DNA from: Actinorugispora endophytica
GTDB taxonomy: Bacteria > Actinomycetota > Actinomycetes > Streptosporangiales > Streptosporangiaceae
Reading direction: 5' to 3'
NCBI RefSeq assembly: GCF_004363075.1
Contig: NZ_SNYN01000023.1
Location: 1 to 64,000 of the forward strand
DNA length: 64,000 nucleotides
Part shown: piece by piece, positions 43,183-57,100 of the stretch
Numbering within the stretch: the first letter of the stretch is position 1
How the letters are laid out: each line of letters opens with the position of its first letter
The notes under the pieces: model-generated
Told to the model about the DNA's origin: nothing
Database searches by the model: none
The model's input: only the letters and a program-made list of their open reading frames with translations
Program-made: the position numbers and the translations under genes

Positions 43183-43257
43183 TCGGGGAGGCGGGATTCG
43201 AACCCGCGGCCTCATGCTCCCAAAGCATGCGCGCTAACCAAGCTGCGCTACTCCCCG
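43183..43257 (-). tRNA. tRNA-Pro (anticodon TGG)
   Basis: Minus-strand sequence CGGGGAGTAGCGCAGCTTGG opens the gene. Anticodon stem CATGC/GCATG encloses TTTGGGA, giving anticodon TGG; the T arm is GCGGGTTCGAATCCCGC. Acceptor arms CGGGGAG and CTCCCCG pair fully. Discriminator A; CCA not encoded. Confidence 0.93.
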
Positions 43258-43364: not shown

Positions 43365-43438
43365 GCGGGTGTAGTTCAATGGTAGAACTCCAGCCTTCCA
43401 AGCTGGTCGTGCGGGTTCGATTCCCGTCACCCGCTCCA
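43365..43438 (+). tRNA. tRNA-Gly (anticodon TCC)
   Basis: Plus-strand sequence starts GCGGGTGTAGTTCAATGG. Anticodon stem CCAGC/GCTGG encloses CTTCCAA, so the anticodon is TCC. The T arm reads GCGGGTTCGATTCCCGT. The acceptor arms pair, the discriminator is T and the 3' CCA (43436-43438) is encoded, unlike the other three tRNAs here. Confidence 0.94.
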
Positions 43439-43813: not shown

Positions 43814-44041
43814 ATGGGGCACAAGGTCCGGATCCAGGAACTCCCGGGGATCGGGAAACGCTACGACGCCGAGGCCGGGGCCCCGGGGCAGCGGGTCTCC
43901 GTGGTCGTCCGCGGCAACGGGATCCGGGACCTCTACGTGTTCACGTCGGACTCCCCCGATCCCGACGCGGTCCTCGAACTGACCGAGGAGCAGGCTCTGC
44001 GCATCGGCGCGATCCTCTCCGGCACCTTCTTCACCTCATGA
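43814..44041 (+). CDS. Small KhtT-like regulatory subunit of a cation/proton antiporter
   Basis: A 75-aa protein whose sequence KVRIQELPGIGKRYDAEAG, then GQRVSVVVRGNGIRDLYVF and ELTEEQALRIGAILSG, matches the N-terminal domain of KhtT/YhaT-type subunits. Those proteins normally add a C-terminal RCK_C nucleotide-binding domain; here that domain is missing. It sits 61 bases before a CPA2 antiporter gene, so it is almost certainly that transporter's regulatory partner. Ribosome binding is weak (GGGAGACGACAG lies 14 bases upstream). Confidence 0.7.
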   Translation: MGHKVRIQELPGIGKRYDAEAGAPGQRVSVVVRGNGIRDLYVFTSDSPDPDAVLELTEEQALRIGAILSGTFFTS

Positions 44042-44102
44042 GCCCGCCGGACGCTCCCGCGCGTCGGCCGCCCCAGCACGCCGCCCTCCGGTGAGGTAAC
44101 CC

Positions 44103-45596
44103 ATGCCGCACAACGAACTGCTCGTCTTCGGCGCGCTCATGCTCACCGCCGGCCTGCTGGCCAGGTTCGGGCGGAGGGTGGGGCTCCCGACGGTCCCCTT
44201 CTTCATGGCGGCCGGGGTCCTCCTCGGTCCGGGAACACCAGGGCCCGTGCTCATCGAGGACCCCGAGAGCCTGCACCTGCTGGCCGTCCTCGGCCTCGTC
44301 CTGCTGCTGTTCCAGCTCGGCGTGGAGTTCCCGGTCAAGCAGGTCCTTTCCAGCGGCAGGCGGCTGTTCACCGCCGCCGCCTGCTACATCGGGCTGAACA
44401 TCGGCGCGGGACTGGCCTTCGGCTTCCTGCTCGGCTGGGGGACCGGCGAGGCCCTGGTGGTCGGGGGCGCGCTGGGGATCTCCTCCTCCGCGATCGCCAT
44501 CAAGATCCTGATCGAACTGCGCAGGCTGACCAACGCCGAGACGCCCGTGATCCTGGGCATCATCGTCATCGAGGACCTGTTCCTGGCCTTCTACCTGGCG
44601 CTGATCCAGCCGGTCCTGTCCGACGCGTCCTCCCCGACGGACCTCGTCGTGCAGATCATCACCGGCTTCGGTTTCCTCGCGCTGCTCTTCGTCCTGGCCC
44701 GGTTCGGCGCGCGACTCATCGGGGCCGTCATCAACAGCCGCGAGGACGAGCTGCTCACGATCCTGATGGTCGGGCTCGTCGCGCTGGTGGCGGGGCTGTC
44801 CGAGGAGCTGGGCGTGTCCGAGGCGATCGGCGCGCTGATGATCGGCCTGGTGGTGTCGCGCACGTCGGTGCGCGAGCGGGTGGAGCGGCTGGTGCTGCCG
44901 CTGCGCGACGCGTTCGCCGCGGCGTTCTTCGTCTACTTCGGGCTCGGCATCAACGTCGCGGACCTGCCCGCCGTCGCGGTCCCCGCGCTGCTCGCGGTGG
45001 TGATGACGGTCGTCACGAACCTGACCGCCGGGGTCATCGCCGGGCGGCTCCACGGCTTCAACCAGCGCGCCACCGCCAACATCGGGCTGACCGTGCTGGG
45101 GCGCGGCGAGTTCTCCCTCATCCTGGTGACCCTGGCGCTGGGCGCGGGGCTCGATCCCCGGCTGGGGCCGTTCGTGGCGTTGTACGTGCTGGTCCTGGCC
45201 GTGCTCAGCCCGCTGATGGCCTCGGGGTCGCGGTACCTGGCCCGGGTCCTGCCCGACTCGCTGCTGGTCTCCAACTGGCGCTACGTGCGCGAGGAGACGA
45301 TCGGCACCTCCTGCTCGCACCTGGACCAGGTGGTGGTCACCGAGCCGGACGGCCGCGAGTGCGCCGAGTGCGCGCGCGTCGGCGCGACCTGGGTGCACCT
45401 GCGCCTGTGCACGGCGTGCGGGACGGTGGCGTGCTGCGACGACTCGGTGAACAAGCACGCCGGCGCCCACTTCCGGGAGAGCGGGCACCCGATCGTGCAG
45501 TCCATCGAACCGGGTGAGGACTGGCGGTACTGCTACGTGGACGCGATGCTGGTCCGCGAGCCCGCGGGCGGCGGGCGGGAGCCGGAGCGGGGCTGA
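44103..45596 (+). CDS. CPA2 cation/proton antiporter with C-terminal UBP-type zinc finger
   Basis: This 497-aa protein has a Kef/KhtU-type transport domain (residues 1-~390) of about a dozen hydrophobic helices, with LLLFQLGVEFPVKQ, GGALGISSSAIAIKIL, VEDLFLAFYLAL-type helix (IIVIEDLFLAFYLA) and VLGRGEFSLILVTL. The last ~85 residues are a zf-UBP domain: CSHLDQ, ECAECARVGATWVHLRLC, TACGTVACCDDS, NKHAGAHFRESGHPIVQSIE and WRYCYVD. Such fingers bind free C-terminal Gly-Gly in ubiquitin systems in eukaryotes; in bacteria the ligand is unknown. Here the finger occupies the place of the usual cytosolic KTN/RCK gating domain. K+ or Na+ specificity cannot be read from sequence. Confidence 0.85.
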   Translation: MPHNELLVFGALMLTAGLLARFGRRVGLPTVPFFMAAGVLLGPGTPGPVLIEDPESLHLLAVLGLVLLLFQLGVEFPVKQVLSSGRRLFTAAACYIGLNIGAGLAFGFLLGWGTGEALVVGGALGISSSAIAIKILIELRRLTNAETPVILGIIVIEDLFLAFYLALIQPVLSDASSPTDLVVQIITGFGFLALLFVLARFGARLIGAVINSREDELLTILMVGLVALVAGLSEELGVSEAIGALMIGLVVSRTSVRERVERLVLPLRDAFAAAFFVYFGLGINVADLPAVAVPALLAVVMTVVTNLTAGVIAGRLHGFNQRATANIGLTVLGRGEFSLILVTLALGAGLDPRLGPFVALYVLVLAVLSPLMASGSRYLARVLPDSLLVSNWRYVREETIGTSCSHLDQVVVTEPDGRECAECARVGATWVHLRLCTACGTVACCDDSVNKHAGAHFRESGHPIVQSIEPGEDWRYCYVDAMLVREPAGGGREPERG

Positions 45597-45640
45597 CCGC
45601 GGCGCGGCCCGGTTCCGTCCGGGCCGCGCGGCGCGGTCAG
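45593..45640. terminator. Bidirectional terminator spanning two convergent stop codons
   Basis: CTGACCGCG plus GCGCGGCCCGG (45593-45612) pairs with CCGGGCCGCGC plus CGCGGTCAG (45619-45640), with a 2-base bulge and loop TTCCGT. The outer ends contain the TGA of the antiporter gene and the TCA (stop, minus strand) of the flavoprotein gene. Confidence 0.8.
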
Positions 45641-47310
45641 ACCGACGCGCGGTAGCGGTGGATGAGGGCGACCGCCATGGCGCCCTCCCCCACCCCCGAG
45701 GCGACGCGCTTGACGGACCCGGCGCGCACGTCGCCCGCCGCGAACACCCCCGGCATGCTGGTCTCCAGCAGGAACGGCTCCCGCCCGGCCTCCCAGCCGG
45801 GGACCCCGCCGTCCTCGCCGCGCACCAGGTCGGGGCCGGTGAGCAGGAACCCGGCGCGGTTCCGCTGGAGCAGCCCGGCGACCCAGTCCGTGCGCGGGCG
45901 CGCGCCGATGAAGGTGAAGACGAAGCGCGCGGGGACCTCCTCGGTCCGCTCCTCGGCCGAGTCGCGCAGGACCAGCTCCTCCAGCCGGTCCCCGCCGGCC
46001 AGCCCGGTGACCCGGGTGTTCAGCCGGACCCGGATGTTGGGCCGCGCGGCGATCTCGTCGACCAGGTACTGCGACATCCCCTTCTCCAGGCTGTCGCCCC
46101 GCACGAGCAGGGTGACGTCGGCGGCGTGCTGGGAGAAGTGCATGGCGGCCTGCCCCGCGGAGTTGGCCCCGCCGATGATGTGGACCTCCTCGCCCGCGCA
46201 GGCCGTGGTCTCGGCCGTCGCCGCGCCGTAGTACAGCCCGGCGTTCTCGAACCGCTCGACCCCGGGGACGTCCAGCCGGTTGTAGGACACGCCCGTGGTG
46301 AGCAGCACGACCTCGGCGCTGATCTCGCGCCCGTCCGCGAGGGTGACGATGTGCGAGGGCCCGGCCTTGCGCAGTCCGACGGCCTCGACGGGCGAGAGGA
46401 TCTCCGCGCCGAAGCGCCGGGCCTGGGTGACCGCGCGCCGGGCCAGGTCGCCGCCGGACAGGCCCGTGGGGAAGCCCAGGTAGTTCTCGATCCTGCTGGA
46501 CATGCCCGCCTGCCCGCCGGGGACGTCCCGGTCCAGCAGCAGCGTGCTCAGGCCCTCCGACGCGCTGTAGACGGCGCCGCCCAGGCCCGCCGGGCCGCCG
46601 CCGACGATGAGGACGTCGTAGTGCGGGCGGGTCGCGGTGCCCGCGATGCCCAGCCTCCCGGCCAGTTGGGCGCTGTCGGGCGCGGACAGCGCGTCGCCCT
46701 CGGGGAACAGCACCAGCGGCAGCCGCGCGTCGGGGTGCCCGGCGGTCAGCTGGGCGGCCTCCTCGTCGCGGGCCGCGTCCACGAACCGGAACGGCTGCTG
46801 GTTGCGGGTGAGGAAGTCCCGGATGTGGTGGGCGGCGGGGGAGACGGGGTGGCCGACGACCCGGATGCCCCGGTAGGGCGGGTGGTAGGAGGCCCACCAG
46901 TCGTCCAGGAGGTCGTCCAGCACGGGGTAGAGCCGCTCCTCCGGCGGGTCCCACGGCTTGAGCAGGTAGTGGTCGAGCCGGACCTGGTTGATGGCCGTGA
47001 TGGCCGCCTCGGTGTCGGCGTAGGCGGTGAGCAGGACGCGCCGCGCGGACGGGAAGCGCGCCACCGCCTCCAGGAGGAAGTCGACTCCCGTCATGTCCGG
47101 CATGCGCTGGTCGACCAGGAACAGGGCGGGCTCCTCGTCCCGGGCCTCCAGCGAGTCGAGGGTCCTGAGCGCCTCCCGTCCGGAGGGGGCCGACAGGACG
47201 CGGTAGCGGTCGGCGTAGGCCGCGCGCAGGTCCCTGCGCACGGCCCTGAGCACGTGCGGGTCGTCGTCGACCGCCAGCAGGACGGGCCTGGGCGGGGAGG
47301 CATCGGTCAC
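45637..47310 (-). CDS. Response regulator receiver fused to a thioredoxin-reductase-like flavoprotein
   Basis: This 557-aa protein starts with a receiver domain (~8-130): VLLAVDDDPHVLRAV, phospho-acceptor in LFLVDQRMPDMTGVD and YLLKPWDPP. A linker with a thioredoxin/glutaredoxin-like stretch (PFRFVDAARDEEAAQL) leads to an FAD/NAD(P)H oxidoreductase (~235-550): DVLIVGGGPAGLGGAVYSA, HIIGGANSAGQAA and the FAD-closing FAAGDVRAG. The redox-active CxxC of true thioredoxin reductase is replaced by TTACAGEE, so it should pass electrons differently. GTG start with CAGGAG upstream. It is convergent with the antiporter gene and upstream of nothing; the zf-UBP gene precedes it by 38 bases and is probably co-transcribed. 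Confidence 0.85.
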   Translation of the reverse strand: MTDASPPRPVLLAVDDDPHVLRAVRRDLRAAYADRYRVLSAPSGREALRTLDSLEARDEEPALFLVDQRMPDMTGVDFLLEAVARFPSARRVLLTAYADTEAAITAINQVRLDHYLLKPWDPPEERLYPVLDDLLDDWWASYHPPYRGIRVVGHPVSPAAHHIRDFLTRNQQPFRFVDAARDEEAAQLTAGHPDARLPLVLFPEGDALSAPDSAQLAGRLGIAGTATRPHYDVLIVGGGPAGLGGAVYSASEGLSTLLLDRDVPGGQAGMSSRIENYLGFPTGLSGGDLARRAVTQARRFGAEILSPVEAVGLRKAGPSHIVTLADGREISAEVVLLTTGVSYNRLDVPGVERFENAGLYYGAATAETTACAGEEVHIIGGANSAGQAAMHFSQHAADVTLLVRGDSLEKGMSQYLVDEIAARPNIRVRLNTRVTGLAGGDRLEELVLRDSAEERTEEVPARFVFTFIGARPRTDWVAGLLQRNRAGFLLTGPDLVRGEDGGVPGWEAGREPFLLETSMPGVFAAGDVRAGSVKRVASGVGEGAMAVALIHRYRASV

Positions 47311-47348
47311 GGTCTGCAACTCCTGTCGGTGGGTGGGGAGGGCCGCGG

Positions 47349-47606
47349 TCAGGACACCGGGATCTCGTCGGCGTAGCACCACACCCAGGACTCCCCCGGT
47401 TCCCGGGAGGTGACGAGCGGGTGGCCGTGCTCGCGGAAGTGCCGGGTCGCGTGCCGGTTCCGCGAGGAGTCGCAGCACCCCACGTGTCCGCAGGTCAGGC
47501 ACATTCGGAGGTGGACCCATGTGTCGCCGGTCCTGAGGCAGTCCTCGCAGCCCTGGGCACTGGGGGTGACGTCGCGGATCTGGTCGACGTGCGTGCACGT
47601 GAACAC
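47349..47606 (-). CDS. Stand-alone UBP-type zinc finger protein
   Basis: An 85-aa protein made only of a zf-UBP domain: CTHVDQ, GCEDCLRTGDTWVHLRMC, LTCGHVGCCDSS, NRHATRHFREHGHPLVTSRE, WVWCYADEI. It aligns nearly residue for residue with the C-terminal domain of the antiporter encoded at 44103-45596. The zinc ligands (three Cys pairs and the H-x3-H / H-x3-H pattern) are intact. GTG start with AAAGG upstream. It precedes the receiver/flavoprotein gene by 38 bases. Function is unknown; relation to the antiporter suggests a shared ligand or partner. Confidence 0.85.
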   Translation of the reverse strand: MFTCTHVDQIRDVTPSAQGCEDCLRTGDTWVHLRMCLTCGHVGCCDSSRNRHATRHFREHGHPLVTSREPGESWVWCYADEIPVS

Positions 47607-48271: not shown

Positions 48272-49099
48272 GTGTCAAAGCGAGTGTTGATCGTCCTTTC
48301 CGAGTACGGGTACTGGGGAGAGGAACTCGTCGGGCCCTTGAGCGCCTTCGACGAGCGCGGATACGACGTCACCTTCGCCACTCCCACCGGCCGGCGGGCG
48401 CACGCGCTGCCGCCCAGCACGGACCCCGGCTTCGTCGACCCGCCGCTGGGCCGCCCCGTGGTGTCCGAGGCGGTGGCCAAGCTGACCCGCGAGGTCGAGG
48501 CGTCGTCCCGGCTGGAGAACCCGCTGGACCTGTCCTCGTGGCTTCCCGAGCGCCCCTACACCAGCGACGGCGACTACCTGCGCGGCCTGGAGGCCTACAA
48601 CCGCGCGCTGGACGCGGTCGCCGAGGACGTCCGGACGCGGTACGACGCGCTCCTCCTGGTCGGCGGCAGCGGTCCGATCGTGGACATGGCCAACAACGGG
48701 CGCGTGCACGACCTGCTGCTGGCGTTCCTGCGCACCGGGAAGCCGATCGGCGCCGAGTGCTACGGGGTCGCCTGCCTGGCCTTCGCCCGCGACTGGGAGG
48801 ACCGCGCCAGCATCATCCGGGGCAAGCACGTCACCGGGCACTGCAAGGAGTACGACTACAAGGACGGCACCGGGTTCCTGGGCACCGACTTCGCCATGGG
48901 ACCGCCGCCGTACCCGCTGGAGTACATCCTGCGCGACGCCACCGGCCCCGACGGCCGCTACCACGGCAACTTCGGCAGGGAGACGTCGGTCGTCGTCGAC
49001 TACCCGTTCGTCACCGGCCGCTCCACCCCCGACTCCTTCCTGACCGGGACAACGATGGTCGCCGTCCTGGAGGACGGCCTGACCCGGTACGGCTGGTGA
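48272..49099 (+). CDS. DJ-1/PfpI-family protein (type 1 glutamine amidotransferase fold)
   Basis: A 275-aa protein of the DJ-1/PfpI superfamily. It opens with RVLIVLSEYGYWGEELVGPL and has its nucleophile elbow at GAECYGVAC, putting the reactive cysteine at residue 163; DALLLVGGSGPIVDMANN is the preceding strand. Members act as glyoxalases, chaperones or hydrolases. The length and the SSWLPERPYTSDGDYLRGLE insertion resemble the larger Hsp31-like forms. The GTG start has AGGAG 8 bases upstream. It is the first gene of the 48.3-62.5 kb operon and is followed by the ThDP enzyme after 4 bases. Reaction not assignable. Confidence 0.82.
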   Translation: MSKRVLIVLSEYGYWGEELVGPLSAFDERGYDVTFATPTGRRAHALPPSTDPGFVDPPLGRPVVSEAVAKLTREVEASSRLENPLDLSSWLPERPYTSDGDYLRGLEAYNRALDAVAEDVRTRYDALLLVGGSGPIVDMANNGRVHDLLLAFLRTGKPIGAECYGVACLAFARDWEDRASIIRGKHVTGHCKEYDYKDGTGFLGTDFAMGPPPYPLEYILRDATGPDGRYHGNFGRETSVVVDYPFVTGRSTPDSFLTGTTMVAVLEDGLTRYGW

Positions 49100-49103
49100 C
49101 CCG

Positions 49104-50771
49104 ATGACCCGCGCGCACCAGGTGCCGCCGCGCCCCGGCAGGGCCGCGCTGTTCGAGCAGTTCCGCGCCGACGGCATCACCCGCATGTTCGGCAACCCCG
49201 GCACGGTCGAGCAGGGGTTCCTGGACGCGCTGGAGGACTTCCCGGACTTCCACTACGTCCTGGCCCTCCAGGAGACCGTGGCCGCGGGCATCGCCGACGG
49301 CTACGCCCGCGCCACCGGCGGCCCCGCGCTGCTGCAGCTGCACAGCGGCGTCGGCCTGGGCAACGGGATCGGCATGCTCTACCAGTCCAGGCGCGGCCAC
49401 ACGCCCCTGGTCTGCGTGGCCGGGGAGGCCGGCGTCCGCTACGACGCCATGGACGCGCAGATGGCCGCCGACCTGGTGGCGATGGCCCGCCCCGTCACCA
49501 AGTGGGCCGCGCGGGCCACCGACCCGTCCTCGCTGCTGCGCATGGTGCGCCGGGCCGTCAAGATCGCGATGACGCCGCCGCGCGGCCCGGTCTTCCTGGC
49601 CCTGCCCATGGACGTGCTGGACGCGGTGACGACCGAGCCCGCACTGCCGACCTCGATCCCCACGACCCGCGCGGTGTGCGCGCCCGACGTGGCCGAGCAG
49701 GCCGCCCGGCTGCTGGCCGGGGCCCGGCGCCCGCTGGTCCTGGTCGGCGACGGCGTCGCGCTGTCGGGCGCGCAGGAGGAGCTGGCGCGCGCCGCCGAGG
49801 CGCTCGGGGCGATGGTGTGGCAGGTCGACTCCTCCGAGGTCAACATCCCCGCCGACCACCCTTTGTCGGCCGGCCAGACGGGTCACATGTTCGGACACGC
49901 CAGCCGGGCGGTGGTCGCCGACGCCGACGCGGTGCTGATCGTGGGCACGTACGTGTTCCCCGAGGTGTTCGCCGACCTGGCCTCGCCGTTCGCCCCCGAC
50001 GCGCGGATCGTGCACGTCGACCTCGACGGGTACGAGATCGCCAAGAACCACCCGGTCGACCTGGGCGTCGTCGCCGACCCCGCCCCGACGCTGGCGGCGA
50101 TCACCGACGCGCTGGTCTCGCTGCGCTCCGCGGCCGACGCGGAGGCCGCCCGGGGCCGCCTGGAGGACGCCCGCGCCGCGGCGCGGGGGCGCGTGACCGG
50201 CGCGGCGCGGCCCGCGGAGGGCGAGCCGCTGCTGGCGGCGTTCATGCGGGAGCTGTCCGCGCGGCTGGACGACGACACGGTGGTCTTCGACGAGGCGCTG
50301 ACCGCCTCGGGCATCATCACCGACTTCCTGCCGCCGCGGATCCCCGGGCGGTACCACCTGACCCGGGGCGGCTCGCTCGGCGTGGGCTTCCCCGGCGCGG
50401 TGGGCGCGAAGCTGGCCCACCCCGACCGGACCGTCATCGGGTTCTCCGGCGACGGCGGGAGCATGTACACCTACCAGGCGCTGTGGACGGCGGCCCGGTA
50501 CGGCGTCGCCGCCCGGTTCGTGGTCTGCAACAACGGCCGCTACCAGCTGCTGGACTCCAACATCGACCAGTACTGGCGCGAGCGCGGCATCGCCCCGCGC
50601 GACTACCCGTCCGGTTTCGACCTGTCCCGCCCGGACATCCGCTTCGCGGAGGTCGCGCGCGGCCTCGGGGTGGCGGCGACCCGGGTGGACAAGGCCGAGC
50701 AGGTCCCCGACGCGGTGGACCGGATGCTCGCCTGCCCCGGCCCCTTCCTGGTCGACCTGCACACGGGCTGA
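49104..50771 (+). CDS. ThDP-dependent 2-keto acid decarboxylase, benzoylformate-decarboxylase-like
   Basis: A 555-aa enzyme with three domains. The Pyr domain has the cofactor-activating glutamate E57 (LALQETVAAGIADGYAR) and LHSGVGLGNGIGM with H80, which corresponds to the catalytic histidine of benzoylformate decarboxylase; the FGNPGT loop carries T34 where that enzyme has serine. The central domain is Rossmann-like (PLVLVGDGVALSGAQEEL). The PP domain has the GDG...NN motif at 449-477 (GDGGSMYTYQ...VVCNN). A decarboxylase or carboligase acting on an aryl- or branched 2-keto acid is likely, but acetolactate-synthase-like roles are not excluded. The next gene follows after 32 bases with AAAGGAG. 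Confidence 0.85.
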   Translation: MTRAHQVPPRPGRAALFEQFRADGITRMFGNPGTVEQGFLDALEDFPDFHYVLALQETVAAGIADGYARATGGPALLQLHSGVGLGNGIGMLYQSRRGHTPLVCVAGEAGVRYDAMDAQMAADLVAMARPVTKWAARATDPSSLLRMVRRAVKIAMTPPRGPVFLALPMDVLDAVTTEPALPTSIPTTRAVCAPDVAEQAARLLAGARRPLVLVGDGVALSGAQEELARAAEALGAMVWQVDSSEVNIPADHPLSAGQTGHMFGHASRAVVADADAVLIVGTYVFPEVFADLASPFAPDARIVHVDLDGYEIAKNHPVDLGVVADPAPTLAAITDALVSLRSAADAEAARGRLEDARAAARGRVTGAARPAEGEPLLAAFMRELSARLDDDTVVFDEALTASGIITDFLPPRIPGRYHLTRGGSLGVGFPGAVGAKLAHPDRTVIGFSGDGGSMYTYQALWTAARYGVAARFVVCNNGRYQLLDSNIDQYWRERGIAPRDYPSGFDLSRPDIRFAEVARGLGVAATRVDKAEQVPDAVDRMLACPGPFLVDLHTG

Positions 50772-50803
50772 CCGACGCACACCCACACCGAAAGGAGCCC
50801 CCT

Positions 50804-51235
50804 ATGGCCGAGTTCTCCGAGGCCGCGATCCGCCGGGCCGTGATCCGCTGGTACCGCGCCCTGGACCGGCACGACGAGCTGAGCGAGGTGCTGCCCTACC
50901 TCGTCGACGACGGCCTGGAGATGCGCTTCCCCGAGGGCGTCAGCCGCGGCCACGCCGGGTTCAAGGAGTGGTACGAGCGCGTGACCACCCTGTTCTTCGA
51001 CGAGGAGCACACCGTCAGGAGCGTGGACGTGGACTTCACCGGCCCCGCCTCGGCGACCGTCGCGGTCCTGGTCAACTGGCAGGCCCGGGTCTGGAGCCCG
51101 CCCGCCGCGCAGAGCCGGTGGCTCGGCTTCGACGCCTTCCAGACCTGGGAGGTCGTCCTGGACGAGGGCCGCGTCAAGGTCAGGACCTACACCGTGGACG
51201 CCCTCGACCCCATGCCGGGTTCGGCGTCCCTCTGA
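50804..51235 (+). CDS. NTF2/SnoaL-fold protein 1
   Basis: A 143-aa protein predicted to form the cone-shaped NTF2 fold: helix AAIRRAVIRWYRALDRHDEL, then EVLPYLVDDGLEMRFPEG, GHAGFKEWYERVTTLF and a strand-rich end (ATVAVLVNWQARVW, TWEVVLDEGRVKVRTYTVDA). Such proteins are small isomerases, cyclases, dehydratases or ligand binders. It is the first of four tandem NTF2-fold genes that share little sequence beyond the fold. Ribosome binding site AAAGGAG precedes the ATG. Confidence 0.75.
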   Translation: MAEFSEAAIRRAVIRWYRALDRHDELSEVLPYLVDDGLEMRFPEGVSRGHAGFKEWYERVTTLFFDEEHTVRSVDVDFTGPASATVAVLVNWQARVWSPPAAQSRWLGFDAFQTWEVVLDEGRVKVRTYTVDALDPMPGSASL

Positions 51236-51302
51236 TCCCTCCCCTCGCGCCGGGCGAACCCGCGCGGCGTCCGTCACACCCACCACCAGGCAAGGAGCCA
51301 CC

Positions 51303-51725
51303 GTGGCCAACACCGAACTCGTGTTCAAGATGTACGAGTACTTCAACGCAGGCAAGCTCGACGCCATCCGGTCCGAGCTGTTCGCCCCGGACATCGTCTG
51401 GCGGATGCCGGGCCACCACCCCCTCTCGGGCACGATGAGCGGCGTCGACGAGGTCATGTCGTTCCTGACCAACCTCTTCCAGGCCGGGATCACCGTCGAC
51501 AACGCCCACTTCGGCGAGCTGGACGACGGCACCGTCTGCGAGAAGCACCTCGGCCACGCCGAGCTCGACGGGGAGAAGTTCCTGTTCCCCACCTCCACCA
51601 CCTACGGGGTCCGCGACGGCCGGCTCGCCGACGTGCAGGTGCACACCGCCGTGCAGCACGACGTGGACCGGTACTTCTGGGCCCGCTTCCAGCTCAAGCC
51701 CGTCGCCGAGCGGGTGGCGTCCTAG
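51303..51725 (+). CDS. NTF2/SnoaL-fold protein 2
   Basis: A 140-aa protein with the SnoaL-type start ELVFKMYEYFNAGKLDAIRS, then LFAPDIVWRMPGHHPLSGTM and a pocket-lining GVDEVMSFLTNLF. PGHHPLSG (conserved histidines facing the cavity in related proteins) suggests a catalytic or ligand role similar to ketosteroid-isomerase-like proteins. GTG start with AAGGAG 5 bases upstream. The stop codon directly abuts the ATG of the next gene. Confidence 0.8.
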   Translation: MANTELVFKMYEYFNAGKLDAIRSELFAPDIVWRMPGHHPLSGTMSGVDEVMSFLTNLFQAGITVDNAHFGELDDGTVCEKHLGHAELDGEKFLFPTSTTYGVRDGRLADVQVHTAVQHDVDRYFWARFQLKPVAERVAS

Positions 51726-52184
51726 ATGGCGGGCCAGGGGCCGACCCGGGAGCGGGTCGAGGCGGCCTACCAGGCGCTGGAGACCGGTGACCGGTCCCGC
51801 GTCGCCGAGTACTGGGCCGAGGACATGCGCTGGCTGGTCCCCGGCAACCACCAGCTCGCCGGCTGGTGGGAGGGCCTGGACGGGTTCCTCGACTTCATGG
51901 GGCGGGTCGGGCGGCTGTCCGGCGGGAGCTTCGTGATGAAGCGCGAGGCCGTCCTGCTCTCCGGGGACCGGTCCGCCGACGTGTCCCACAACGTCGGCTA
52001 CCGGGCGGGCGCCGACGGCAGCCCGTCCCTGTACGACCGCCTGGAGATCGACGTCATCCACCTGCTGCGGTGGCGCGACGGCAGGGTCGTCGAGGGCCGC
52101 GGCGCGGTCTTCGGTGACGGAACCACCACCTTCAACCAGTTCTGGTCACAGGTCCGGGCCGACGGCGTCCGGACCGACGGCTAG
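51726..52184 (+). CDS. NTF2/SnoaL-fold protein 3
   Basis: A 152-aa member of the same fold, with VEAAYQALETGDRSRVAEYW, AEDMRWLVPGNHQLAGWWEG and a C-terminal LLRWRDGRVVEGRGAVFGD. It shares with protein 2 the W-x-[MV]-PG-[HN]-H core followed by L-x-G, so these two are the closest pair in the set, pointing to duplication. Its ATG begins directly after the previous stop. Confidence 0.78.
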   Translation: MAGQGPTRERVEAAYQALETGDRSRVAEYWAEDMRWLVPGNHQLAGWWEGLDGFLDFMGRVGRLSGGSFVMKREAVLLSGDRSADVSHNVGYRAGADGSPSLYDRLEIDVIHLLRWRDGRVVEGRGAVFGDGTTTFNQFWSQVRADGVRTDG

Positions 52185-52211
52185 GGGACCGCTCCGCGTG
52201 AAAGGGCACCG

Positions 52212-52592
52212 ATGGACACCCGAGAAGTAGTCGAGAGCTACTACGACCTCGCCAACAAGGGGGACTGGTCGCGCTGGTGCGACCTGTTCGCCCCCGACCA
52301 GGTCATGGACGAGCAGCTCGCCGGTCGCGTCGAGGGCCGCGAGACGCTCCGCTCCATGATGCGCGGGTTCCCCGACATGTACTCCTCCTTCGCCAACGTG
52401 CCCCGGCACGTGGTCGTCGAGGGCGGCCAGGCGGCGGTCGTGTCGCACATCTCGGCCCGCACCCGCGGCGGCGCCGGGATCGAGGCGGAGGTCGTCAACT
52501 ACTTCCGCGTCGTCGACGGCCTGATCTCCTACATGGCCAACTTCCACGACACGGTGCCCTTTCACGTCCTCGACCCCGACCCCCGGAGCTGA
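52212..52592 (+). CDS. NTF2/SnoaL-fold protein 4
   Basis: A 126-aa, compact member: EVVESYYDLANKGDWSRWCD, LFAPDQVMDEQLAGRVEGRE, FPDMYSSFANVPRHVVVEGG and YFRVVDGLISYMANFHDTVP. This resembles the polyketide-cyclase-like SnoaL branch more than the other three. Ribosome binding AAAGGG lies 6 bases before the ATG. It is followed by the GMC oxidoreductase after 8 bases. Confidence 0.78.
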   Translation: MDTREVVESYYDLANKGDWSRWCDLFAPDQVMDEQLAGRVEGRETLRSMMRGFPDMYSSFANVPRHVVVEGGQAAVVSHISARTRGGAGIEAEVVNYFRVVDGLISYMANFHDTVPFHVLDPDPRS

Positions 52593-52600
52593 GTCGTCCC

Positions 52601-54190
52601 ATGCAGGAGTACACGCACATCATCGTCGGCGGCGGCACCGCCGGGTCCGTGCTCGCCAACCGGCTGACCGAGGACCCCGACGTCAGCGTCCTGGTCCTGG
52701 AGGCGGGGGCGGGCTGGATCCCGCGGAACGTGGACGCCGCCCCGCTGTGGTTCACCCTGCTGGGCTCCGAGGTCGACTGGGGCTACGGCAGCGTCGCCCA
52801 GCCCGGCCTCGGCGGGCGCAGCACCTACGAGCCGCGCGGCCGGATGCCCGGCGGCAGCAGCAACCTGTACATCATGATGCACGTCCGGGGGCACCCCTCG
52901 GACTTCGACTCCTGGGCCTACCAGGGCGCGCCCGGCTGGTCGTACCGCGACGTCATGCCCTACTTCGCCCGGTCGGAGTCGGTGGAGTCCCCCGCCGGCC
53001 CCGACGCGGGCCGGGAGGGCCCCCAGACCGTCACGCGCGCCGACCGGCACGGGCCCAACCCGACATCCCGCTCGTTCCTCCAGGCCTGCGCCGAGCTCGG
53101 CCACCCGTTGCTGGACGACTTCAACAGCGGCGACATGTCGGGCGCGGGCTGGCACCAGCTCGACGTGCGCGGCGGCCGGCGCAGGGGCGCGCTCGCCAGC
53201 TACCTGGAGCCCGCGCTGGGCCGCCCCAACCTGACGGTGCGCACCAGCGCCACCACCACCCGGATCGTCGTGGAGAACGGGCGCGCCACCGGGGTGGAGT
53301 ACCACCAGGGCGCGGAACCGGACGCGTTCCCGGACACGGCACGCCGGATCGGCGCTCCCGGCCCGGAGGCCGGTCCGCAGCGGGCGCGCGCCACCGGCGA
53401 GGTGCTGGTGTGCGCGGGCGCGATCGAGTCGCCCAAACTCCTGATGCTCTCGGGGATCGGCGACCCGACGCGCCTGCGCGAGGCGGGCGTGGACCCGGTC
53501 GCCGACGTTCCGGGGGTCGGGGAGAACTTCCACAACCACGTGCTCACCGGCATGATGTCGGAGCTGCGCGAGGCCCCCGCCCAGGGCGCCCAGAACCTGT
53601 CCGAGGCCGCCCTGTTCACGCGCTCCGACCCGGGGCTCCCGGCGCCGGACCTGCAGATCGCGTACGTGCACGTGCCTTTCGACATCATCGTCGGCAGGGA
53701 CCACCCCACCGCGGTCAGCGTCCTGCCGGGCCTGGTGCGCCCGGCGTCGCGCGGCTGGGTCCGGCTGGCCGGGCCCGACCCGTTCGCCGCCCCGCTGATC
53801 AACCCCAACTACCTGGCGGACCCCTGGGACCTGGAGCGCATGGTCGCCGCGGTGCGGATCGGCCGGGACCTGTTCGGCACCCGGGCCTTCGCGCCGCTGG
53901 TCAAGCAGGAGCTCACCCCGGGGCCGGACGTCACCACCGACGCCGGGATCGCCGACTACGTGCGGCGCACCGCCGACAGCTACCACCACCAGGCCGGCTC
54001 GTGCCGCATGGGGCTGGACGACCGGTCGGTGGTGGACCCCCGGCTGCGGGTGCACGGGGTCGAGGGGCTGCGCGTGGTGGACGCCGGCGTGATGCCGTCG
54101 GTGCCCTCGGGCAACTGCCACACCGCGGTCGTGATGATCGCGGAGAAGGCCGCCGACCTCGTCCGGGGCCGGGAGGCCCGGAATGGCTGA
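52601..54190 (+). CDS. GMC-family FAD-dependent oxidoreductase
   Basis: A 529-aa flavoenzyme of the glucose-methanol-choline family. The FAD-binding motif THIIVGGGTAGSVLANRL is at the N-terminus, RMPGGSSNLYIMMHVRGH is the second GMC signature region, and GAIESPKLLMLSGIGDP is PROSITE-type signature 2. The active-site base is H463 in YHHQAGSCRMG; the second catalytic position is in SGNCHTAVVM (N505/H507). It should oxidise a primary or secondary alcohol, with or without O2. Its last 8 bases overlap the next gene (ATGGCTGA), implying tight coupling. Substrate unknown. Confidence 0.88.
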   Translation: MQEYTHIIVGGGTAGSVLANRLTEDPDVSVLVLEAGAGWIPRNVDAAPLWFTLLGSEVDWGYGSVAQPGLGGRSTYEPRGRMPGGSSNLYIMMHVRGHPSDFDSWAYQGAPGWSYRDVMPYFARSESVESPAGPDAGREGPQTVTRADRHGPNPTSRSFLQACAELGHPLLDDFNSGDMSGAGWHQLDVRGGRRRGALASYLEPALGRPNLTVRTSATTTRIVVENGRATGVEYHQGAEPDAFPDTARRIGAPGPEAGPQRARATGEVLVCAGAIESPKLLMLSGIGDPTRLREAGVDPVADVPGVGENFHNHVLTGMMSELREAPAQGAQNLSEAALFTRSDPGLPAPDLQIAYVHVPFDIIVGRDHPTAVSVLPGLVRPASRGWVRLAGPDPFAAPLINPNYLADPWDLERMVAAVRIGRDLFGTRAFAPLVKQELTPGPDVTTDAGIADYVRRTADSYHHQAGSCRMGLDDRSVVDPRLRVHGVEGLRVVDAGVMPSVPSGNCHTAVVMIAEKAADLVRGREARNG

Positions 54191-55223
54191 CCTGGTCCGC
54201 GCCGCCGACGGCAGGCTCGCCGGACGGCGGATCGCGATCCTCATCGAGAGCGACTACTACGAGCCGGAGATCTTCTACTACCAGCGGCGCTTCGCCGAGG
54301 AGGGGGCCGAGGTCGTCTTCCTGACCCGGATGTGGGGCCGGGCCGAGCTGACCTTCACCGGGCACGAGTACCGCGCGCCGTTCACCTGCACGGGGAGCGT
54401 CGAGGACGTCGACGACGCCGAGCTCGCCTCCTTCGCCGCGCTCCTCATCCCCTCGGGGATGGTGTCGGACCGGCTGCGCTACACCGAGGACGTCACCGCC
54501 ATCGCGCCCGCCACCGACCTGGTCCGCCGGGCGTTCGCCGAACCCGGTGTGCTCAAGGGCGTCATCTGCCACGGCCTGTGGCTCGTGGCGCCGATCCCCG
54601 AGGTGGTGCGGGGGCGCCGGGTGACGGCGCACAACAACCTCATCGGGGACGTGCGCAACATGGGCGCGGACTACGTCGACGCCGACGTGGTCGTGGACGG
54701 CGACCTGGTGACGGGCCGCTCGGGGCAGCACGCGCACCTGTTCGCGCGGCGCGTCATCGAACTGCTCGACCGCCCCGCGCCCGGGCCGCGGTGGTCGCAC
54801 GCGGCGCTGAACTGCCGGTCGCCGCGCGCCACCGAGGAGTTCTACACCCGCTGGTTCGGGTTCCGGCGCGCTCGCGCGGTCCCCCTCGGCGACGGCGCCG
54901 AGATCGTTTTCCTGCGTTCGGGCGACGCCTATCTCGAACTGTTCGGCTCGCCCGGCGGCGGGGCGCCGGGGACGGGGGACGGACCGGACCTGCCCGGGAC
55001 CGTCCGGCACCTCGCCTTCCAGACCGACGACGTGGACGGCCTGCTCAAGCGGATGGGCGACGGGGCCCGCGTGACGCTCGGGCCGCTGGACTTCGACGCG
55101 TTCATCCCCGGATGGCGCAGCGTCTGGCTCACCGACCCCGACGGCGTCGTGGTCGAGGTCAGCCAGGGATACCAGGATGCGGACCCCGCCGCGGACGCGG
55201 CGGCGGAAGGAGGACGACGATGA
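54183..55223 (+). CDS. DJ-1/PfpI domain fused to a glyoxalase/VOC domain
   Basis: A 346-aa two-domain protein. Residues ~15-195 are DJ-1/PfpI: RRIAILIESDYYEPEIFYYQ, SFAALLIPSGMVSDRL and the nucleophile elbow GVICHGLWLVAP with C129. Residues ~205-325 are a vicinal-oxygen-chelate domain: WSHAALNCRSPRATEEFYTR, GDAYLELFG, VRHLAFQTDDVDGLLKRM and VWLTDPDGVVVEVSQ, containing the H and E metal ligands. DJ-1 and VOC proteins can each act on methylglyoxal-type aldehydes, so the fusion may clear or shape a reactive carbonyl. DJ-1 homologues lie at this point of the cyanobacterial icfG cluster. Confidence 0.83.
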   Translation: MADLVRAADGRLAGRRIAILIESDYYEPEIFYYQRRFAEEGAEVVFLTRMWGRAELTFTGHEYRAPFTCTGSVEDVDDAELASFAALLIPSGMVSDRLRYTEDVTAIAPATDLVRRAFAEPGVLKGVICHGLWLVAPIPEVVRGRRVTAHNNLIGDVRNMGADYVDADVVVDGDLVTGRSGQHAHLFARRVIELLDRPAPGPRWSHAALNCRSPRATEEFYTRWFGFRRARAVPLGDGAEIVFLRSGDAYLELFGSPGGGAPGTGDGPDLPGTVRHLAFQTDDVDGLLKRMGDGARVTLGPLDFDAFIPGWRSVWLTDPDGVVVEVSQGYQDADPAADAAAEGGRR

Positions 55224-57100
55224 CCGACACCGACCTGACCCGCCCCGGGAGCGCGGCGCCGGACGGCTCCGAACCGGTGAACGCCCAGTTCACCCGGTCC
55301 GACACGGTGGCGGGGTACGTGACCGGGAGCGTGCCCGGCGGCTTCGGGATGCGCACGGGCGACGGCCGCCGGTTCGAGGTGGAGGTCAACGGCTCCACCT
55401 CGGCGGAGATGCTGCGCAACCTCGGCCAGCCCTACCTCGACGCCTCCGGGCACCTGGGCGACCTGCTCGTCCCGGGCCGGTTCCTGTACGTCCACGGCGT
55501 CTTCTACCCCAGCGGTGACAGGACCCGGTTCGAGGCCAAGCGGCTGGTCTTCGTGGGGCGCGGGCCCGCCGAGTACGCCTTCGAGAACCCGCTGTGGTGG
55601 GTGCACCAGATCGACCAGCTCGCCTCGTTCTACCGGCGCGCCCAGTTCGGCTCCGGCCCGGTGGACTTCCGCGACTACCGCACCGTCCTGCGGCTGAGCG
55701 GCGACAAGTCCGACAGCCACGTGCAGGAGACCGACACGATCTCCCGGCTGGTCTACGGCATGGCCTCGGCCTACATGCTCACCGGCAACGAGGACTACCT
55801 CGACGTGGCCGAACGCGGCACCGAGTACCTGCGCTCGCACATGCGGTTCGTGGACCGCGACGAGGACACCGTCTTCTGGTACCACGGCATCGAGGTCCAG
55901 GGCGACTCGGAGAAGAAGCTGTTCACCTCCGAGTTCGGCGACGACTACGACGCGATCCCGATGTACGAGCAGATCTACGCGCTGGCCGGCCCGGTCCAGA
56001 CCTACCGGGTGACCGGCGACCCCCGGATCACCGCCGACACCGACGCCACGCTGCGGCTGTTCGAGAGGTTCTTCCGCGACCACGACAAGGGCGGCTACTA
56101 CTCCCACGTCGACCCGATCTTCCTGGACCCGCACCACGAGTCGCTGGGCGTCAACGCCTCGCGCAAGAACTGGAACTCGGTCGGCGACCACGCCCCCGCG
56201 TACCTGGTCAACCTGTTCCTGGCCACCGGCGAGGAGCGGCACGCCGAGATGCTCAAGCGGACGTTCGACACGATCACCGAGCACTTCCCCGACTACGGGC
56301 ACAGCCCCTTCGTCCAGGAGCGCTTCCACGACGACTGGAGCCCCGACCGCGCCCACGGCTGGCAGCAGGACCGCGCGGTCGTGGGGCACAACCTCAAGAT
56401 CGCCTGGAACCTGACCCGGATGGACCTGCAGCGTCCCGACCCCGCCTACACCCGGCTGGCCCGGCACATCGCCGACCTGATGCCGGGCGTGGGCGCGGAC
56501 CCGCAGCGCGGCGGCTGGTACGACGTGGTGGAGCGGGTCGCCGAGCCCGGCCTGCCCACGCACCGGTTCACCTGGCACGACCGCAAGGCGTGGTGGCAGC
56601 AGGAGCAGGCGATCCTGGCCTACCTCGTCATCGCGGGTCAGAGCGGGGACCCCGAGTACCTGCGCCAGGCCCGGGAGGCCGCCGCGTTCTACAACGCGTT
56701 CTTCCTGGACCACGACGAGGGCGGCGTGTACTTCAACGTCCTGGCCGAGGGCCTGCCCTACCTGGTGGGGACCGAGCGGTTCAAGGGCAGCCACTCGATG
56801 AGCATGTACCACTCGGCCGAGCTGTGCTTCCTCGCCGCCGTCTACGGCAACCTGCTCATCCACGGGAAGCCCATGACGCTGTGGTTCAGGCCGCGCCCCG
56901 ACGCGCCGCGGCTGCTGCGGGTCCAGCCCGACATGCTCCCCGCGGGCGCGGTCCGCCTGACCGGGGTGGAGATCGACGGCGCCGCCCACGACGACTTCGA
57001 CCCCGACGCGATGACGGTGGCCCTGCCCGAGTCCGCGGAGTCGCTGACCGTGCGGGTCCGGCTCACCCCGGTGCCCGCCGACCACGATCGGAGGACCTGA
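55220..57100 (+). CDS. AGE (N-acylglucosamine 2-epimerase) family protein with extra N-terminal beta domain
   Basis: A 626-aa protein. The first ~115 residues are a beta-rich, OB-like domain (DTVAGYVTGSVPGGFGMRTG, RFEVEVNGST, LLVPGRFLYVHGVFYPSGD). Residues ~125-545 form the (alpha/alpha)6 barrel of the AGE/cellobiose-epimerase superfamily, with MASAYMLTGNEDYLDVAERG, KNWNSVGDHAPAYLVNLFLA, KIAWNLTRMD, FTWHDRKAWWQQEQAILAYL and a His-rich GSHSMSMYHSAELCF end. The tail is a small beta unit. AGE enzymes interconvert GlcNAc/ManNAc or glucose/mannose residues at C2. ATGA overlap with the upstream gene. A similar gene precedes the STAS-glgX genes in the cyanobacterial icfG cluster. Confidence 0.82.
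   Translation: MTDTDLTRPGSAAPDGSEPVNAQFTRSDTVAGYVTGSVPGGFGMRTGDGRRFEVEVNGSTSAEMLRNLGQPYLDASGHLGDLLVPGRFLYVHGVFYPSGDRTRFEAKRLVFVGRGPAEYAFENPLWWVHQIDQLASFYRRAQFGSGPVDFRDYRTVLRLSGDKSDSHVQETDTISRLVYGMASAYMLTGNEDYLDVAERGTEYLRSHMRFVDRDEDTVFWYHGIEVQGDSEKKLFTSEFGDDYDAIPMYEQIYALAGPVQTYRVTGDPRITADTDATLRLFERFFRDHDKGGYYSHVDPIFLDPHHESLGVNASRKNWNSVGDHAPAYLVNLFLATGEERHAEMLKRTFDTITEHFPDYGHSPFVQERFHDDWSPDRAHGWQQDRAVVGHNLKIAWNLTRMDLQRPDPAYTRLARHIADLMPGVGADPQRGGWYDVVERVAEPGLPTHRFTWHDRKAWWQQEQAILAYLVIAGQSGDPEYLRQAREAAAFYNAFFLDHDEGGVYFNVLAEGLPYLVGTERFKGSHSMSMYHSAELCFLAAVYGNLLIHGKPMTLWFRPRPDAPRLLRVQPDMLPAGAVRLTGVEIDGAAHDDFDPDAMTVALPESAESLTVRVRLTPVPADHDRRT

Follow-up and report, generated by a model that had tools for sequence, protein, structure and literature searches.

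In the KhtTU system of B. subtilis and the CpeAB system of Streptomyces, the RCK_C domain of the regulatory subunit (KhtT or CpeA) binds c-di-AMP and alters the contact of that subunit with the antiporter (PMC10117811). The locus described here resembles both in encoding a CPA2 exchanger with a KhtT-type subunit upstream, the N domain of which matches, but the c-di-AMP-binding RCK_C domain is found in neither protein and the antiporter carries a zf-UBP zinc finger instead. KefC and KefB are also CPA2 exchangers, and the structural model of our antiporter is closest to KefC (8bxg) and NapA (5bz2); unlike the Kef proteins, however, it has no NAD(P)-binding RCK_N (TrkA_N) domain and therefore no KTN gate. 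The analogy with glutathione-gated Kef that was drawn in a preliminary description of this DNA is accordingly a loose one: both are conceived as CPA2 exchangers under a gate, while the RCK_N domain is absent here. We conclude that the antiporter unit is an exchanger of the KhtTU/Kef kind, and a novel variant of it.

The two other components of the locus also have well-described relatives. A flavoprotein shares its FAD and NAD(P) domains with thioredoxin reductase (TrxR) and AhpF, from which it differs by the absence of the CxxC motif, by an added receiver domain and by a putative thioredoxin-like domain devoid of cysteines. The zinc finger is the same as that of the eukaryotic ZnF-UBP proteins HDAC6 and USP5, with clear homology. 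In HDAC6, R1155 is essential, together with Y1156, for anchoring the C-terminus of ubiquitin (PMC12000391), whereas most bacterial fingers carry Asp or Ser in place of this anchor arginine.

Organisation of the locus

The window, by which we mean the whole 64,000-nucleotide stretch analysed, corresponds to positions 1–64,000 of contig NZ_SNYN01000023.1 of Actinorugispora endophytica (GCF_004363075.1; genome 5.25 Mb). It contains the following features.

43814–44041 (+): KhtT N-domain-only protein, 75 aa, without the RCK_C half (phmmer to KhtT 7agw/7agv, E 6e-7/1e-6)
44103–45596 (+): 497-aa CPA2 cation/proton antiporter ending in a zf-UBP finger (Pfam PF00999 and PF02148)
45360–45554 (+): zf-UBP finger of the antiporter, at the position of TrkA_C/RCK_C in relatives (Pfam, alignment)
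45598–45633 (no strand): strong inverted repeat between convergent operons, 15-nt arms, 6-nt loop, no T-tract
45637–47310 (−): receiver, Trx-like domain (no Cys) and TrxR-like flavoprotein without CxxC, 557 aa (Pfam, alignment, AlphaFold2)
46942–47277 (−): receiver domain with acidic DDD, phospho-Asp, Thr and Lys (Pfam Response_reg, residues 12–123; alignment)
46645–46875 (−): predicted beta-alpha-beta-alpha-beta-beta-alpha domain, Cys motif replaced by SPAA (AlphaFold2 secondary structure, residues 149–220; sequence)
46213–46230 (−): YGAATA where TrxR has CxxC (alignment)
47349–47606 (−): 85-aa stand-alone zf-UBP protein, encoded first in the flavoprotein operon (Pfam E 3.6e-16)
48272–57100 (+): divergent metabolic cassette of DJ-1, TPP enzyme, SnoaL-like, GMC oxidoreductase, DJ-1-glyoxalase and AGE epimerase genes (synteny with Streptomyces)

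The four parts previously proposed for 43814–47606 are all present, as judged from Pfam, PDB matches and alignment. Pfam places Na_H_Exchanger (E 4.5e-53) and then zf-UBP (E 1.9e-10) in the antiporter, and neither TrkA_N nor TrkA_C is matched within 44103–45596, bearing out the proposal that a zinc finger stands at the end of the protein where a KTN/RCK gate is usual. The 75-aa ORF has no Pfam match at all, TrkA_C included, and in comparison with PDB 7agw it ends at the same point as the KhtT N domain; the partner does, as had been suggested, lack its RCK_C half. The flavoprotein matches Response_reg (E 2e-14) and Pyr_redox_2 (E 3e-31), and the YGAATA sequence confirms the predicted loss of the CxxC pair from a receiver-TrxR-like fusion. 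The two fingers had been called nearly identical, which overstates their similarity, since they share 43 of 79 residues (54%).

These two are the only zf-UBP proteins in the genome, so that their pairing at one locus exceeds chance. The zf-UBP antiporter is also the only PF00999 protein detected in the genome, and TrkA_C matches are confined to Trk-type proteins. The antiporter and flavoprotein operons converge on the inverted repeat, a probable bidirectional terminator. A sigma-70 promoter scan found none, the outcome expected of a genome so rich in G+C. Two tRNA genes (43183–43257, −; 43365–43435, +; Rfam) lie directly 5′ of the antiporter operon.

KhtT-N and CPA2-zf-UBP form a conserved two-gene unit

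Antiporters bearing the finger were surveyed in 84,980 species genomes and in 395 genomes of this class, at loci chosen from the best-scoring finger matches and not at random. Such proteins occur in Nocardiopsis, Allonocardiopsis, Micromonospora, Actinoplanes, Plantactinospora, Streptomyces, Isoptericola and Nocardioides. CPA2 is combined with the finger in 68 ORFs, and a KhtT-N ORF immediately precedes 61 of them; these are the intact short actinobacterial CPA2-zf-UBP ORFs, and in all 61 (a count that includes some loci twice, the tree containing 50 distinct antiporters) the KhtT ORF lies on the same strand and ends 1–3 residues past the N domain. The remaining seven records comprise five long-insert antiporters (six records, with one locus represented twice) and one contig-end fragment; in both examples examined, of the five, the long insert before the finger contains TrkA_N. 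KhtT-N with CPA2-zf-UBP is thus a conserved two-gene unit.

In the antiporter tree the short finger-bearing antiporters form one clade (support 97/91). Its sister (99/95) consists of the finger-less antiporters of genomes G196 and G337, which are accompanied by a 177-aa KhtT carrying TrkA_C; in other relatives TrkA_C is part of the antiporter itself (Geodermatophilus, locus L216) or no domain of this kind is present. Given a sister group with full-length KhtT and no finger, the RCK_C sensor seems to have given way to the finger; most simply, KhtT lost RCK_C as the antiporter acquired the finger. The earlier suggestion of a finger in place of an RCK_C-type gate is therefore upheld, both by the invariably truncated KhtT and by the sister clade. 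In one genome (G235, C11:208000–227000, locus L239), the two-gene unit and a finger-less close relative are found 9 kb apart.

The finger is also found on other antiporters. A separate CPA2 lineage combines Na_H_Exchanger, TrkA_N and zf-UBP without TrkA_C, the finger occupying the same position, and in Balneola a CPA2-TrkA_N protein has the finger as a separate gene close downstream. Among CPA1 exchangers there are zf-UBP fusions, plus 10 fingers encoded adjacent to a CPA1 gene. Seven plasmid-borne zf-UBP neighbourhoods include no antiporter among their annotated genes, the gene tables being incomplete; flavoproteins are present in those of Agrobacterium, Rhodococcus and Burkholderia.

The finger family and its pocket

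The zf-UBP domain was detected in 175 of 297 genomes of this class, and the family is also present in Rhizobium, Deinococcus, Nostoc and Balneola. The zinc ligands are conserved in the alignment, in keeping with a zinc-binding fold. The stand-alone finger matches a close bacterial relative, PDB 2ida (E 6e-34), which is listed as 'hypothetical protein' and which we take to be RPA1320. An AlphaFold model of the antiporter places the membrane part and leaves the finger unplaced (pLDDT below 50). The literature searched contained no relevant paper on bacterial zf-UBP domains with antiporters, in actinobacteria or with response-regulator/TrxR fusions; work by Burroughs, Iyer and Aravind from 2011 is said to deal with prokaryotic binuclear treble clefs, and may already list such fusions.

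Two subtypes, with and without a Cys-x-His...Cys site, can be distinguished among 173 bacterial fingers, although the calls depend on a single alignment that is loose in its N-terminal part. The site is present in all 81 antiporter-linked fingers as against 23 of 76 fingers in two stand-alone classes, those with a receiver-fused TrxR-like flavoprotein (RR-TrxR) and those classed as 'solo other'; 17 of 21 fingers from histidine kinase/RR-TrxR operons are of the subtype lacking it, a point against coupling of the antiporter finger to the flavoprotein. The aromatic pocket (W39, W83, W/Y85 and Y/F87) is kept in nearly all bacterial fingers, whereas Asp at position 56 is invariant only in the short antiporter clade.

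The clear homology to the HDAC6 and USP fingers, along with the retained pocket, raises the question of whether the bacterial domain binds the C-terminus of a ubiquitin-like protein such as Pup, in the way that the eukaryotic ZnF-UBP binds ubiquitin. We consider this very improbable. At the position equivalent to R1155, none of the 173 bacterial fingers has Arg or Lys; most have Ser or Asp there, and those of the short antiporter clade always Asp. With the anchor arginine missing, binding of a ubiquitin-like tail is unlikely and a different ligand or partner is to be expected. The distribution of the family argues in the same direction, as Rhizobium, Deinococcus, Nostoc and Balneola all possess it and, to our knowledge, lack Pup.

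A second unit pairs the finger with a CxxC-less flavoprotein

In the neighbourhoods of 101 finger ORFs, from 100 actinobacterial loci, the gene found most often is that of a TrxR-like flavoprotein: one lies within 4 kb of 31 of the 87 stand-alone fingers, and 22 of those 31 are fused to a receiver. RR-TrxR is present in 190 of 395 genomes of this class. A zf-UBP protein beside a CxxC-less receiver-TrxR-like flavoprotein is thus a second widespread unit. It is often accompanied by a cNMP-domain histidine kinase, which may lie between the finger and the flavoprotein (Streptomyces, locus L052), and the host genome encodes a second RR-TrxR (C4:248196–249833) with an adjoining cNMP-kinase.

The window flavoprotein has the two-domain FAD and NAD(P)H fold (Pfam and structure comparison), and the best structural matches of its model, with residues 226–557 compared, are TrxRs. 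It nevertheless scores 187.7 against a cut-off of 343 bits for NCBIfam TRX_reduct, and CxxC is absent from every flavoprotein examined whose motif was readable; with no CxxC, the flavoprotein of this unit cannot be a classical thiol reductase. Residues 146–222 may adopt a thioredoxin/glutaredoxin-like, Cys-less topology, judging from the predicted order of secondary structure elements alone. The receiver of the window protein is intact in the alignment, with its acidic pocket, phospho-Asp, Thr and Lys.

Association of the two units

An RR-TrxR gene adjoins a finger-bearing antiporter in the window, in the relative N. trehalosi, in two Isoptericola MAGs, in Nocardioides limicola and in genome G028. 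The TrkA_N antiporter of Balneola is followed, all on one strand, by a DsbA-like gene, the finger, a cNMP-histidine kinase and RR-TrxR. Far from being rarely adjacent in other genomes, zf-UBP and antiporter genes recur together, with CxxC-less flavoproteins, in unrelated organisms. Mapped onto the RR-TrxR tree, adjacency needs 5 changes, of which at least 4 are forced by well-supported branches. RR-TrxR is also present in 16 of 20 genomes with CPA2-UBP and in 174 of 375 others, a difference (p 0.005) to which we give little weight because it is uncorrected for ancestry.

A single integrated locus, as first pictured, is not what these comparisons describe, since the operons are convergent with a hairpin between them and each unit is conserved without the other. 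There is accordingly a substantial, though lesser, chance that the neighbours are incidental, the antiporter being regulated in a self-contained way and the finger and flavoprotein serving the DJ-1/TPP/GMC/epimerase cassette with which they arrived as a block. In three Streptomyces the cassette (its proteins 55–72% identical to those of the window), the finger and RR-TrxR are syntenic and no antiporter is present at that place, and the RR-TrxR copies of these three form one clade with that of the window. Most antiporter loci, for example most of those in Micromonospora and Actinoplanes, have no RR-TrxR within 7 kb. Arrival as one block does not, however, account for N. trehalosi, where an RR-TrxR of a different lineage adjoins the same antiporter unit as in the window, nor for the separate further cases in Isoptericola/Nocardioides, G028 and Balneola.

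A second alternative, to which we give a slightly smaller chance, is that the antiporter finger docks some different partner, whether a C-terminal tail, another regulator from the cytosol or a second subunit of the antiporter, and plays no part in redox, while the flavoprotein makes separate use of its own finger. This would be in keeping with the near-universal aromatic pocket, with the Asp 56 peculiar to the short antiporter clade and with the absence of RR-TrxR from 3 of the 20 antiporter-finger genomes. It sits less well with a finger family that is common to antiporters and flavoprotein operons, and with the recurrence of those operons beside antiporters.

The receivers of the RR-TrxR proteins beside CPA2-UBP at three loci (L207, L210 and L212) have lost the acidic triad, the phospho-Asp and the Lys, and from their sequences they probably act without phosphorylation. 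Since the Isoptericola/Nocardioides receivers are without the acidic residues, their input is unlikely to come from phosphorylation.

A proposed model for finger-dependent regulation

We favour, at somewhat short of an even chance, a reading in which two modules sharing the zf-UBP domain lie side by side and the finger docks the flavoprotein to effectors that include the antiporter. The first module would be a KhtTU-type antiporter that has lost RCK_C from KhtT and gained a finger at the antiporter C-terminus; by analogy with KhtTU and CpeAB, the KhtT N domain would most likely still restrain the antiporter and the finger would provide the regulatory input. The second would be a signalling unit built on the flavoprotein and, in most relatives, controlled through phosphorylation by the cNMP-domain histidine kinase. 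The finger would then be the dock by which the flavoprotein, according to its NAD(P)H/FAD state and phosphorylation, acts on its effectors, the antiporter among them.

The elements of this model differ in strength. Observed directly are the domain make-up, the invariable KhtT truncation, the swap of finger for RCK_C and the repeated co-location of the parts. That the antiporter is gated by its finger is probable by analogy with the described systems, and the chances that K+ is the main ion appear evenly balanced. From the shared fingers and repeated co-location, coupling of the antiporter finger to the flavoprotein can be proposed tentatively, and redox as the relayed signal with considerable doubt. 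More speculative, and in our view unlikely, is a widespread system in which the cNMP-histidine kinase and CxxC-less receiver-flavoprotein would report redox or nucleotide state via zf-UBP, several antiporter families having repeatedly taken the finger for RCK_C, with ion efflux following the signal.

The recurrence of these parts together in distant bacteria suggests a hitherto unstudied mechanism for switching ion transport. If this is true, the domain with which CPA antiporters sense ligands can be swapped, a ubiquitin-family zinc finger having replaced RCK_C several times. It would also give bacterial zf-UBP proteins a first functional context, and what the CxxC-less TrxR-like signalling flavoproteins, a large family, do in the cell would become directly testable.

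Genes to the right of the cassette

Between 57100 and 62500 (+) lie putative STAS-like, GlgX-like, HATPase-like and PP2C-like (RsbU-type) genes followed by a ParA/MinD-like ORF, all named by ORF reading. Just beyond the right edge of the window is a paralogue of the cNMP-binding histidine kinase (C23:64214–65629, within C23:64172–65722; L148:4173–5723), 39% identical to the kinase of the Streptomyces operon. No RR-TrxR adjoins it in the stretch viewed, and it is a candidate kinase for the window flavoprotein.
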